Shown piece by piece: positions 22,087 to 27,028 of a DNA stretch of 64,000 nt. Numbering within the stretch: position 1 is the stretch's first letter; every line of letters begins with the position of its first letter. The stretch is from Pseudidiomarina planktonica. GTDB taxonomy: Bacteria > Pseudomonadota > Gammaproteobacteria > Enterobacterales > Alteromonadaceae. The position numbers and the translations under genes were made by a program. The stretch covers positions 1,178,001 to 1,242,000 of the forward strand of contig NZ_FXWH01000001.1 of NCBI RefSeq assembly GCF_900177775.1, in the 5' to 3' direction. The notes below the pieces were generated by a model that was not told the origin of the DNA, did no database searches, and saw only the letters and a list, made by a program, of their open reading frames with translations.

Positions 22087-22830
22087 TTACGCCGTCATAC
22101 CGCCATCAATCGTAAAACACTGGCCGGTAATAAAGCTGCTTTCATCGCTGCACAACCAACCTACCATTTGCGCCACTTCAGCCGGAGTTCCCAACCGGCG
22201 CAGGGGGTGACTATTCACCAGCGCTTTTTGAGTATGTTCAGGCATGTGTTCAAAGGCACGCGCCATCATGTCGGTTTTAATTATTCCCGGACACACCGCA
22301 TTCACCCGAATTTGGGCGCGGGCATATTCAACGGCTACTGACCGAGTTAAACCAACCACACCATGTTTACTGGCTGCATAAGGTGACAAGCTCGGCGCTG
22401 AGCGAATGCCAGCTACCGACGCCATATTAATAATATGACCACCGCTTGCCAGCATGGCTTTTACCTGCTGCTGCATGCAAAAGAACACACCCTTCAAATT
22501 AATATCAATGGTGTTGTCCCAGTCTTTTTCGGTACATTCCAGTAATGGTTTCGGAGCGTGCTCCACGCCAGCGTTATTTACGGCGCAGTGCAGTTGTAAA
22601 TTATTGCTGCTAAGCCATGCTAACGCTTCTTCCAGGCTATTATTAGCTCGTACATCGGCATTAAAATACTGTACGCGTTCGCCAAGGGCTTGCACCAAAT
22701 CAGCACCGCCTTCGGCCTGAATATCAGTAACCAATAAGGTAGCGCCAGCAGCGTGAAGATGGTCAACGATAGCGCGGCCAATACCTTGTACACCGCCAGT
22801 TACCAGAATGTTTTTACCCTGCAAATTCAT
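22087..22830 (-). CDS. Short-chain dehydrogenase/reductase
   Basis: A 247-residue classical SDR. The cofactor motif TGGVQGIG sits at residues 11-18 and NNAG near residue 85. The catalytic triad is the Ser in NMASVAG with YAASK (Tyr-x-x-x-Lys). PGIIKTDMM and GQCFTIDGGMTA complete the pattern. Such enzymes oxidise or reduce alcohols and ketones with NAD(P); the substrate is not determined here. Its ATG has AGAGGTAAGG upstream and lies 27 bases after the ArsA-type ATPase gene, so it appears to be the last gene of the cstA operon. A role in processing a compound imported by CstA is inferred from position only. Confidence 0.9.
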   Translation of the reverse strand: MNLQGKNILVTGGVQGIGRAIVDHLHAAGATLLVTDIQAEGGADLVQALGERVQYFNADVRANNSLEEALAWLSSNNLQLHCAVNNAGVEHAPKPLLECTEKDWDNTIDINLKGVFFCMQQQVKAMLASGGHIINMASVAGIRSAPSLSPYAASKHGVVGLTRSVAVEYARAQIRVNAVCPGIIKTDMMARAFEHMPEHTQKALVNSHPLRRLGTPAEVAQMVGWLCSDESSFITGQCFTIDGGMTA

Positions 22831-22857
22831 GCCTTACCTCTGTTGTTGTGGGAATGG

Positions 22858-23871
22858 CTAAAGCCCTTTATCAGCCAGTTGCTGCGACATTGCCGTTAAT
22901 GCTGTTAAGCCTTGAATATCATTTGCCTGCAACGGAATATACCAACGTTGTTGCTGCGCAAACAAGGTTTCTATGTCGGCCAGGTAGGTCTTTTCCTGTT
23001 TGCGGCGCTGCGCCATAAAGTCGCCGTCGGCACTATCGGGCAGCACCCGGTTAATCAACAGGCCAGCTAATGGCAGTGATTCGCCCTGCAATGATTTCAC
23101 CGAGCGAGCAGTTTCCATAATGGGTAATTTTTCAGGAGTTAATACAAACAGTAACGCGGTTTGGCTGGCATCTTTCAAAATGCGGCGGGTACGTTGAAAG
23201 AGTTGCTGACGTTTGCGCAAGGACTCGGTAATAGCCTTAGTGCGGTCAGTCATGCCGTCGGTTTCGTGCTCGCCAGGGTCAGCCATGGGGTTTTGAATAT
23301 CCTTGCCACTTTTTGGCGACAAATGATCGAGCACGCCCTTTAATTGCTCAGATTTATCGGTTTGTTTCAGCATTCCCTGAGTCCAGGCTGCCATAGCTTC
23401 CGGCAAACTGAGCAAACGCAGCGTATGGCCAGTTGGCGCGGTATCAAACACAATCAGGTCGTAGTTATTCAAACCTTCATCAATGAGTCGGGAAATACGC
23501 TCGAGCAGCGCCGCTTCCTGGGCACCGGGTGATTGTTGGGTGAGCCGCAGCTGGCGTTCAATTTCCGGGTACATATCGGGTTGGGTGAAGCGTTTCATTT
23601 GCGCCATAACCCGCTCAACGTGCTCTTGTACCTCTTTATCCGGATCAATTTCCAAACCATCCAGGTTTGCCGCCAATCGGGTAATGTTATCGCCAATAGG
23701 GCGGTCAAAGGCATCGGCTAGGCTGTGGGCGGGATCGGTGCTTACCAGTAGGCATTTACGCCCACGCTCGGCGGCCAATAGGGCGAAAGATGAGGACAAT
23801 GTGGTTTTACCCACACCGCCTTTACCACCAACCAGAACCACACGTTTATCGGTAAGTTGTTGGGATGTCAT
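22858..23871 (-). CDS. ArsA/GET3-family ATPase
   Basis: A 337-residue single-domain ATPase of the ArsA/GET3 (TRC40) family. The deviant Walker A GKGGVGKTT is at residues 16-24, followed by STDPAHSLADAF and later FDTAPTGHTLRLLSLPE (switch II). Known relatives drive arsenite export (ArsA) or deliver tail-anchored proteins (GET3). No arsenical genes are nearby and the tandem ATPase layout of classic ArsA is absent, so arsenite export is unlikely. It sits 28 bases after the CC-terminal small protein gene and 27 bases before the SDR gene. Its partner is presumably encoded in this operon. The client is unknown. Confidence 0.9.
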   Translation of the reverse strand: MTSQQLTDKRVVLVGGKGGVGKTTLSSSFALLAAERGRKCLLVSTDPAHSLADAFDRPIGDNITRLAANLDGLEIDPDKEVQEHVERVMAQMKRFTQPDMYPEIERQLRLTQQSPGAQEAALLERISRLIDEGLNNYDLIVFDTAPTGHTLRLLSLPEAMAAWTQGMLKQTDKSEQLKGVLDHLSPKSGKDIQNPMADPGEHETDGMTDRTKAITESLRKRQQLFQRTRRILKDASQTALLFVLTPEKLPIMETARSVKSLQGESLPLAGLLINRVLPDSADGDFMAQRRKQEKTYLADIETLFAQQQRWYIPLQANDIQGLTALTAMSQQLADKGL

Positions 23872-23899
23872 GGGGTTCTCAGCTTTTCAAAGGGGGGAG

Positions 23900-24172
23900 T
23901 TAACAGCACCGGAAGTGATCAAGTGGGGAGTGTTCCATGCCCATTCTTAAGTGCCATTCATGAAAACGCTCAAGCAGCAAAGGTTGCAGCTCGAGCGTGT
24001 AATAAGTTGCCGGGTTAGGAACCCCCATCATGTCGGAGAATACCAGTAGCATGAACATGTCGTCCTGTTCACGCTTGGCTCTGGCAATCGCCGAACGATA
24101 AGGGGCATTGTAAACCTCCTCGGCGAACGAGGAGGCGGTATTCAACCATTGTTTGATGCGTTTAATCTGCAT
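23900..24172 (-). CDS. Small CC-terminal protein, cory-CC-star type
   Basis: A 90-residue soluble protein that I recognise as the cory-CC-star type from its layout and its last residues HFRCC-stop (Cys89, Cys90). It is helical, with the charged core SAIARAKREQDDMFMLLVFS, then MGVPNPATYYTLELQPLL and LERFHEWHLRMGMEH. It has no signal peptide or membrane segment. It lies between cstA (21 bases) and the ArsA-type ATPase gene (28 bases). CstA homologues elsewhere are followed by YbdD/YjiX, also small and, as I recall, ending Arg-Cys-Cys. It may therefore be a CstA accessory factor or a metal/redox carrier served by the ATPase. Function is not established. Confidence 0.8.
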   Translation of the reverse strand: MQIKRIKQWLNTASSFAEEVYNAPYRSAIARAKREQDDMFMLLVFSDMMGVPNPATYYTLELQPLLLERFHEWHLRMGMEHSPLDHFRCC

Positions 24173-24193
24173 ACCTAATACAACCCGGTGTTG

Positions 24194-25876
24194 TTATTCC
24201 TGTGTTTGCTCGGTAGAGCCGGTTTTAATCAACCGACGCAGCGTGCTACCAGCTTCCAGAGCAATCCAGATAGCGGCAATCAGAATAACAAGATCCAGCG
24301 TGAATAAGAACCAGTCGGCTTTCAGGTAGAAGCTTTGCAGCTGCACAATTAGCGCGAAAATAGTCATTATCAGCAGGAACATCAGCGGAGCTAAGGTATA
24401 CAGCATAGGGCGCCCACGTTGCACCAGCATTACGGTAATAACCAATAAGGTTAAACCTGCTAACAGCTGGTTAGTGGTACCGAACAGAGGCCAGATTAGT
24501 AAGCCACCTGAACCATCTGCACCACCGGCACCAAAGGCCAGCAATAAACAGCTACCCACGGCAAGCAGAGTTGCTGGTAAGGCCTTACCCATCCACTTAA
24601 TGTCGTAAATTTGCGACCACTCCTGGAAAATATAACGCTGCAAACGCAAACCGGTGTCCATAGTCGTACCGGCGAACAGCACCGCCATAACCGTTAGAAT
24701 GGTTTGCGAAATGTCGGTATTTAAACCTATGCCGGCGCTAAGGATGTTGGCACCACCGGTTACGAAGGCAGCAACACCACCTTGCCCGAAGGAGTGATAA
24801 ACCGCCTGCCAGTCAGCCAGAGTGGCGAAACCAGCGGTAGCAGCAATAATAGTGGCCAGTGACAAAGAACCTTCACCAACGGCACCAAAGTAACCAACAA
24901 AACGGATATCCGTTTCTTTGTCGATTTGCTTCGAAGTAGTGCCTGATGCAACCAAACCGTGGAAGCCGGAAATAGCACCACAGGCAATAGTTACGAACAG
25001 CAGTGGCAACATGGAAGGCGTACCTTCAGGTGTATCCATGTTAATAGCTGGCGCAACAATTTCAGGCCCGGAAATAAGCACCGCGGCATAAACCAGAATC
25101 AAGCCAATGAATAACTGTAAACCATTAATGTAATCACGTGGTTGCAACAGCACCCATACTGGCAGCAGTGACGCGATAGCCGCATAGCCAAACAGAATCA
25201 AAATCCACTGCGCGTTATCAGACACACCCATCACGGTTTCAGGTAGTGAAATAGGTACTTCCGGGCCAACAAAGATCAGTGCGTACAGGGCAATAACGCC
25301 AAGTATTGAAATAGCACCAAGACCCATAAACTTTCTGAAAATTAACTGGCCAATAATGAGAGCCACAAAAATAGCCCCCCAAACCGGAACTACCGCACTT
25401 GGGAAGTTAATTAGCAAACCGGAAATAGCTGTGGCAAATACGGCGTTCACCATCAGCAGTACCAGGAATATGACAATCATAAACAAGGTACGGGCGCGGG
25501 TGCCTACCACGTCGCCGGTGAGAGCACCTATGGATTTACCCTGGCGCCGGTTACTGGCCCAGATAGCGCCGGCGTCGTGTACGCCCGCAAAGAAAATAGT
25601 ACCGAAAATCACCCACAAAAACGCAGGTACCCAGCCCCAGATAACCGCAATAGCAGGGCCTATAATAGGCGCTGCGCCGGCAACTGAGGTGAAATGGTGA
25701 CCCCAAAGCACGAATTTGTTGGTTGGCACAAAGTCAACGCCGTCTTCAAATTCATGCGCTGGAGTGCGGAAATTAGGATCAAGCTTAAAGATTTTTTCGG
25801 CAATAAACTTGGAGTAAAAAGCGTAGCCAAGAAACATGGCCACTATACCGAGCAACATCAAGACTATAGCGTTCAT
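24194..25876 (-). CDS. cstA: CstA-family carbon starvation transporter (pyruvate/peptide)
   Basis: A 560-residue membrane protein of the CstA family, whose members import pyruvate or peptides during carbon limitation. Family stretches include LGYAFYSKFIAEKIF, PTNKFVLWGHHFTSVAGAAP (cited once), GPAIAVIWGWVPAFLWV, HDAGAIWASNRR, SGFHGLVASGTTSKQI and LFGTTNQLLAGLTL. It has about 14-16 hydrophobic segments. It is shorter than E. coli CstA (701) and BtsT (716), matching the shorter bacterial form. It leads a tight four-gene operon with the CC-terminal protein, the ArsA-type ATPase and the SDR. A palindrome at 25935-25956 lies 60-80 bases upstream. Confidence 0.93.
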   Translation of the reverse strand: MNAIVLMLLGIVAMFLGYAFYSKFIAEKIFKLDPNFRTPAHEFEDGVDFVPTNKFVLWGHHFTSVAGAAPIIGPAIAVIWGWVPAFLWVIFGTIFFAGVHDAGAIWASNRRQGKSIGALTGDVVGTRARTLFMIVIFLVLLMVNAVFATAISGLLINFPSAVVPVWGAIFVALIIGQLIFRKFMGLGAISILGVIALYALIFVGPEVPISLPETVMGVSDNAQWILILFGYAAIASLLPVWVLLQPRDYINGLQLFIGLILVYAAVLISGPEIVAPAINMDTPEGTPSMLPLLFVTIACGAISGFHGLVASGTTSKQIDKETDIRFVGYFGAVGEGSLSLATIIAATAGFATLADWQAVYHSFGQGGVAAFVTGGANILSAGIGLNTDISQTILTVMAVLFAGTTMDTGLRLQRYIFQEWSQIYDIKWMGKALPATLLAVGSCLLLAFGAGGADGSGGLLIWPLFGTTNQLLAGLTLLVITVMLVQRGRPMLYTLAPLMFLLIMTIFALIVQLQSFYLKADWFLFTLDLVILIAAIWIALEAGSTLRRLIKTGSTEQTQE

Positions 25877-25956: not shown

Positions 25957-26032
25957 AGGTTATCGACATTCGACTAAAGTCTAACGGGTGAGTGTTAGTT
26001 ACAGATATAGCTAGTCAATGGAGGAATTAGCA

Positions 26033-27028
26033 ATGACACACCTTAATAAGTTTATGATTTCGTTGGTAACTTTAAGTGCTGCAGTCACGGTGTTACCAGC
26101 CTGGGCACAACAGAATCCGGAGCAACACGCCGGTGAAACGCCGCTAATGATGAAAACCTCACCTGGTTACTACCGTATGATGTTGGGTGACTACGAGGTT
26201 ACTGCACTGAATGATGGTACTTTTGAATTGCCAGCGCATGAATTACTGAACGGCATGAGCGTTGAAGACGTACGCAAACAGCTGGCAGTATCTTATCAAG
26301 ATAGCCCGGTTGTGACGTCGGTGAACGGCTACTTAATTCACACTGGCAATAAATTAGTTCTGATTGATACTGGCGCTGCGGACTTATTTGGCCCTAGCCT
26401 GGGTAAGTTGCTGACGAGTCTGGAGGCCGCGGGCTACGACGGCGATGCTATTGATGAAGTTTATCTGACGCATATGCATCCGGATCACTTAGGTGGTTTG
26501 CTCGACGAGGGGCGTCGCGCATTTCCAAACGCTGTTATTCGAGCCGATCAAAAAGATTTAGACTACTGGTTAAGCGATGACAATTTAGCCGCTGCAAGTG
26601 ATGCTAACAAAGGCTTTTTTGAAGGTGCCCGCAAGTCTTTGAAGCCTTACTTGGACAATGACCAAGTAGAAGGCTTCAGTGGTTCCACTGAGTTCGGCGA
26701 TGGTATTGCAGCCACTGCGGCCTATGGCCACACGCCGGGACATAGCGTTTATGTGGTTGAGAGTAAGGGCGAAAAACTGATGTTTTGGGGTGACCTTATG
26801 CATGTCGCTGCGGTGCAATTTCCGCATCCCGACATTACCATCGATTTTGACACCGACCAGGAAGCAGCAAGAGCCCAGCGCCGACATGCCTACGAGGACG
26901 CTGCGCGACTTGGTTATTTAGTGGCAGGCTCGCATTTAAGCTTCCCTGGAATTGGTCGCATTCGCCTTGCCAATGAGGGCTATCAGTGGGTTCCGGTGAA
27001 TTACTCAGCACTACGCTCGAGTGAATAA
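26033..27028 (+). CDS. Exported metallo-beta-lactamase-fold hydrolase
   Basis: A 331-residue secreted protein with the metallo-beta-lactamase fold. The ATG at 26033 follows ATGGAGGAATTAGCA; the frame also includes an ATG at 26018, inside the ribosome binding site region. A signal peptide ends near AWAQQ. The metal motif THMHPDHLGGL (H-x-H-x-D-H) is clear, with a later metal His in GHTPGHSVY, Asp in FWGDLMH and His in VAGSHLSFPG. It resembles the lactonase/AiiA-like and YtnP-like branch rather than true beta-lactamases. The substrate is unknown. It is divergent from cstA. Confidence 0.88.
   Translation: MTHLNKFMISLVTLSAAVTVLPAWAQQNPEQHAGETPLMMKTSPGYYRMMLGDYEVTALNDGTFELPAHELLNGMSVEDVRKQLAVSYQDSPVVTSVNGYLIHTGNKLVLIDTGAADLFGPSLGKLLTSLEAAGYDGDAIDEVYLTHMHPDHLGGLLDEGRRAFPNAVIRADQKDLDYWLSDDNLAAASDANKGFFEGARKSLKPYLDNDQVEGFSGSTEFGDGIAATAAYGHTPGHSVYVVESKGEKLMFWGDLMHVAAVQFPHPDITIDFDTDQEAARAQRRHAYEDAARLGYLVAGSHLSFPGIGRIRLANEGYQWVPVNYSALRSSE

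Follow-up and report, generated by a model that had tools for sequence, protein, structure and literature searches.

A CstA-family transporter locus with a Cys-Cys-ending small protein and an ArsA-type ATPase

The cstA-cory-arsA locus

The 64,000-nucleotide stretch of the Pseudidiomarina planktonica genome analysed here (contig NZ_FXWH01000001.1, positions 1,178,001 to 1,242,000; hereafter the window) carries a gene for a CstA-family transporter, followed by genes for a small protein with a C-terminal Cys-Cys, which we call Cory, and for a single-domain ATPase of the GET3/TRC40/ArsA family. We found that these three genes form a conserved unit, and their distribution suggests that the ATPase is tied to Cory and not to CstA. 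Together with a gene for a short-chain dehydrogenase/reductase (SDR) they lie on the minus strand, with spacers of 21, 28 and 27 nt in the order cstA, cory, arsA, SDR, and the sequence agrees with a preliminary description of this DNA in the coordinates and gaps of all four genes:

24194-25876, minus strand: cstA, short type, 560 aa, end not Cys-Cys (PF02554)
23900-24172, minus strand: cory (CstX-like), soluble protein of 90 aa with a C-terminal Cys-Cys, ending ...DHFRCC (NF041419)
23900-23905, minus strand: terminal Cys-Cys codons of cory, TGC TGT, then the TAA stop (from the sequence)
22858-23871, minus strand: arsA-like gene, single-domain GET3/TRC40/ArsA-family ATPase, 337 aa (TIGR00345)
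22087-22830, minus strand: SDR oxidoreductase, 247 aa, 27 nt after arsA, outside the conserved module (generic SDR family)

Profile matches place the three proteins in their families: CstA scores 455.9 bits against PF02554 (cut-off 27), the 90-residue protein, with its FRCC end, 136.9 bits against the cory-CC-star model NF041419 (cut-off 80), and the ATPase 276.9 bits against the GET3/ArsA/TRC40 model TIGR00345 (cut-off 135). Two narrower assignments fail. The ATPase reaches 155.5 bits against the arsenite pump ArsA equivalog TIGR04291, whose cut-off is 650, and CstA reaches 234.4 bits against NF011590, the equivalog of the E. coli CstA pyruvate symporter, whose cut-off is 1188. The label ‘pyruvate/peptide transporter’ given to it earlier therefore holds by family only. 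No ars genes were found among the scanned window neighbours of the trio. Short purine-rich stretches, judged by eye, precede the start codons in the spacers, and a terminator scan detected no minus-strand terminator-like site between the operon genes. A promoter scan of the operon was uninformative, with two promoter-like sites seen and 5.0 expected.

Clusters of cstA, cstX and arsA were published in 2010 by Castillo & Saier (PMC2963123), so the module is not new and cannot be called undescribed, as it had been; NCBIfam also holds a Cory model. The available text of that report lists bacterial and archaeal CstA-ArsA associations, 26 in all, of which 24 include a CstX of about 90 residues and none includes arsenic genes. 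It finds the trees of ArsA, CstA and CstX congruent, and proposes that CstA draws energy from ArsA, the two being linked by CstX. Their cluster resembles the one described here: a CstA, a partner of about 90 residues and a single-domain ArsA of about 330 residues in one operon without ars genes, against 560, 90 and 337 aa and gaps of 21 and 28 nt in the window. From size and context, their CstX is probably Cory. The two descriptions differ in that CstX was presented as a protein with a single transmembrane (TM) segment, whereas the Cory homologues examined here have none, and in the terminal Cys-Cys of Cory, which the available text of the report does not discuss. What is new here is the coupling of ArsA to Cory, the different Cys-Cys-ending partner (YbdD) of E. 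coli-type CstA, and CstA proteins that themselves end in RCC.

Conservation of the trio and the association of ArsA with Cory

Whole-genome sampling was confined to the phylum of the window. A search of 398 genomes with NF041419 found Cory in seven, one being the window’s own locus, and in 7/7 loci cstA stands before cory and arsA after it. A contig scan yielded 553 cory relatives, of which the 80 best-scoring were kept for locus reading; these loci accordingly represent close relatives, mostly from Gammaproteobacteria. In all 80 arsA adjoins cory, and in 79 CstA does so as well; in the exception (L067), some 130 bases separate the start of cory from the end of its contig. The cory and arsA frames overlap in 23 of the 78 loci having an ArsA start, as assigned by our own rule. 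This gene order exceeds chance.

The trio also occurs on plasmids: six plasmid records carry Cory, and the three examined, from Cytobacillus (Bacillota), Paracoccus and Pseudochrobactrum, all contain the three genes, with no arsenic genes annotated in these stretches. Its spread beyond close relatives takes in Gammaproteobacteria, a metagenome-assembled genome labelled Castellaniella, Alphaproteobacteria and Bacillota, which bears out the earlier suggestion of a linked unit, as the three plasmid stretches bear out its separation from arsenic genes. Haloferax volcanii scores below the NF041419 cut-off, and 120 pattern matches obtained for viral copies included no relatives. The SDR gene had been counted as a fourth member of the module. 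We rejected it: in none of the 80 loci do the 3 kb following arsA contain an SDR homologue, and 76 of these loci extend at least 900 nt past arsA. No other neighbour is conserved either, the commonest other gene cluster occurring in only 19 of the 80.

CstA is widespread, with matches in 109 of 200 phylum genomes, and our CstA loci were taken from these after dropping CstA truncated at contig ends (G097, G153, G114). Cory and ArsA lie beside three CstA of this sample (G000, G193, G074). Neither was found beside 83 other CstA loci, some of which stop soon after cstA; 47 of the 83 have YbdD adjacent or nearby, or a Cys-Cys tail in cis. Each of the seven Cory genomes has one strong ArsA-family match (202-258 bits), the linked one, all others scoring at most 39 bits, and none of nine genomes without Cory contains a TIGR00345 match above the cut-off. 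In a tree of 67 CstA, the Cory-type proteins form one clade. Nested inside it is the CstA (L150) of G015, a genome from the window’s family, in which we found no Cory (NF041419), no YbdD and no ArsA above the cut-off (best 37.5 bits). These observations suggest that ArsA is tied to Cory, not to CstA; the simplest reading of G015 would be a joint loss of Cory and ArsA.

Three side observations concern individual loci. In G015, the cstA gene is followed directly on its own strand (L150:2102-3271, minus strand) by one for a Cu/Zn efflux transporter of the SO_0444 type, which scores 457 bits against NF033936 and ends in CCG. On the Cytobacillus plasmid, a 95-residue protein with no family match is encoded between cstA and cory (L090:4178-4465, plus strand). 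At L015 and L054 the ArsA frame after cory is split and the best-scoring open reading frame lacks the P-loop, through either a sequencing error or a real break.

Cys-Cys ends on Cory, YbdD and CstA

The Cys-Cys terminus is present in all 80 best-scoring Cory relatives and in 7/7 Cory of the phylum sample. Two Cys codons end all 80 of the former genes, and selenocysteine (Sec) occupies the terminal positions in none of 87 Cory genes examined. Across 68 distinct homologues, the maximum 19-residue Kyte-Doolittle mean is 0.92-1.29, below the threshold of 1.6 used for TM segments, and Cory therefore has no TM helix. An AlphaFold model shows helices at residues 2-49 and 54-76 followed by a tail (mean pLDDT 76, pTM 0.39). 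No PDB fold matched this model at E up to 10, and the Cory profile retrieved from the PDB, at best, a chance match to HRas (E 0.81). A search of the open-access literature by the name cory-CC-star returned no paper.

A comparable pair is known from E. coli, where CstA-dependent pyruvate uptake requires YbdD and falls to 20% of wild type without it, according to the available text of the report (PMC5847655). As in the window, a CstA-family transporter is accompanied by an adjacently encoded small protein ending in Cys-Cys. The E. coli-type pair differs in that YbdD (PF04328) is not detectably related to Cory, no ArsA was found beside it, and its CstA is long. NCBIfam names the YbdD-like family KCU-star (NF033934/DUF466); its small members end in Cys-Cys or Cys-Sec and belong to a sequence family other than that of Cory, in which we saw no Sec. 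In Campylobacterales, relatives of YbdD carry a C-terminal Sec after Cys, from which the authors infer redox activity in the text available (PMC4607533).

We assigned CstA as E. coli-type from length and score, and examined the 49 such loci with an intact end, from 47 genomes. YbdD is adjacent in 37 of them, ending in [RK]CC in 34 and in CPC in three (L116, L118, L167), and in two more (G199, G089) it lies on another contig. The remaining ten CstA have no YbdD and end in ...RCC themselves; none of the 49 has both YbdD and a cis tail. Plasmid copies with YbdD (five annotated or named, and one more) leave this pattern unchanged. The cis-tail CstA (L168 and L170-L179; genera g109 and g102) are 695-759 aa long, one having a longer open frame, and the ten counted above form a clade nested among the YbdD-type CstA (support 1.0). 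Neither PF04328 nor NF041419 has a match in their genomes, which are 76-100% complete, and the YbdD profile is silent on the proteins themselves: no remnant of a YbdD body is attached to the tail. A charged segment follows their last helix and, by the positive-inside rule, suggests that the tail is cytoplasmic. Should a bare Cys-Cys end be transferable in this way from partner to transporter, the tail and not the partner’s body would be the active part. We found no paper on CstA ending in Cys-Cys in an open-access literature search with limited terms.

No Cory-type CstA ends in Cys-Cys (0/77). All 77, and the 27 aligned CstA of mixed type, share an invariant cysteine, C299 (in ACGAISGFH). As this residue is kept also in CstA types without a tail, it does not prove a thiol relay. 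A search for a solved CstA structure gave only two unrelated chains (E 0.2).

Possible roles of the ATPase and the Cys-Cys tail

The P-loop, STDPAH and DTAPTGHT motifs are conserved across 82 homologues of the ATPase. The CxxC zinc motif of the GET dimer is absent from all 82 and no cysteine is conserved, the largest Cys column reaching 12/82. The model of the ATPase (pTM 0.80) has a helical subdomain and a disordered segment at residues 176-201; its closest structure is the archaeal TRC40/Get3 3zq6, at 31% identity.

We tentatively favour a reading that we put at close to an even chance: Cory is loaded or gated by the ATPase and works on CstA from the cytoplasm through its Cys-Cys end. The transporter would then have a dedicated two-protein attachment, in which Cory, soluble and mostly helical, exposes its two terminal cysteines to CstA on the cytoplasmic side and takes, by analogy, the role that YbdD has for E. 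coli-type CstA. The ATPase may act as an ATP-gated dimer that holds a hydrophobic helix of Cory and loads it onto, or releases it from, CstA, and the ATP state, or the redox or metal state of the dithiol, may set transporter activity. The physical contacts, the direction of ATP use, the tail chemistry and the substrate are what we infer from the sequences and models. The preliminary description had the ATPase loading, inserting or remodelling the small protein or the transporter: the first of these targets agrees with ArsA being coupled to Cory and not to CstA, and insertion into the membrane falls away with the lack of a TM segment. A broader idea, plausible but held a little less firmly, is that CstA transporters have in the Cys-Cys tail a functional part that can be moved about, with three exchangeable sources, namely YbdD (Cys-Cys, Cys-Pro-Cys or, from the literature, Cys-Sec), Cory with its ATPase, and the transporter’s own C-terminus, and that the ATPase handles the tail protein. 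If so, a bacterial GET3-family ATPase would have a defined, soluble client that is not tail-anchored.

Several observations weigh against these proposals. The low pTM makes the Cory model a weak one. Cory and YbdD show no detectable homology (hhalign probability 3.5%, with a shallow Cory alignment), and Cory has no Pfam match to PF04328 (YbdD/Sel_put), so an equal function is an analogy only; a GVP...Y stretch and RCC end common to both by eye were not counted. Separate gains of Cory-ArsA, two independent ones elsewhere, could explain G015 too, and the available text of the 2010 report has two of 26 CstA-ArsA pairs without CstX, contrary to a strict Cory-ArsA tie (PMC2963123). There are also CstA for which we found neither an adjacent Cys-Cys partner nor a Cys-Cys end: 24 short CstA (families f39 and f59), L132, L150 and L159, and seven distant CstA. 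Genome-wide searches found neither PF04328 nor NF041419 in four f39 genomes and G001; L159 (634 aa) is basal to the YbdD clade, and its genome carries YbdD on another contig. The tail is consequently typical of two CstA types and not needed by every CstA.

Castillo & Saier’s own explanation, that ArsA directly energises transport through CstA with CstX/Cory as coupling subunit, draws on the conserved operon and on the tree congruence in the available text of their report (PMC2963123). We regard it as doubtful, given that we found no ArsA next to the 83 loci with other CstA types, that E. coli CstA works without ArsA, that a Cory-clade CstA persists without ArsA in G015, and that secondary carriers of the family are reported as proton symporters, such as the H+/pyruvate symporter BtsT (PMC7730263, from the text available). 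Rather unlikely, in our estimate, is a redox switch, in which the Cys-Cys tail senses redox state and switches CstA, ArsA is only a holdase protecting Cory, and individual transport cycles do not each consume ATP. The C-terminal Sec in YbdD relatives (NF033934), read as a redox sign by the authors in the text available (PMC4607533), would agree with it; the lack of Sec at these positions in all 87 Cory genes speaks against it.

The absence of a TM helix from Cory and of arsenite or zinc cysteines from the ATPase makes both tail-anchor insertion and arsenite handling unlikely. A GET-like role, in which the ATPase serves membrane insertion of Cory or of some other tail-anchored protein, appeals to the predicted fold, closest to archaeal TRC40/Get3, and to the presence of the helical subdomain. 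It is very unlikely, since the partner lacks a TM segment in 68 distinct homologues and the CxxC of GET3 is missing from every ATPase; the helical segment is also slightly less hydrophobic than that of 3zq6 (median hydropathy -0.85 against -0.65), a small and weak difference. No more credible is a relay in which a metal(loid) bound by the Cys-Cys of Cory would pass to the ATPase. ArsD, a vicinal-cysteine partner of ArsA, offers a parallel, and Cory likewise places vicinal cysteines on the small partner of an ArsA-family ATPase. The ATPase that would receive the metal(loid) has no conserved Cys, and no annotated ars genes lie beside the three plasmid copies. C113, C172 and C422 are not conserved in single-domain ArsA homologues, as far as the available text of the 2010 report goes (PMC2963123).

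The divergent neighbour of cstA in the window (26018-27028, plus strand) encodes an AidB-type lactonase-like protein that scores 201.7 bits, below the cut-off of 360.

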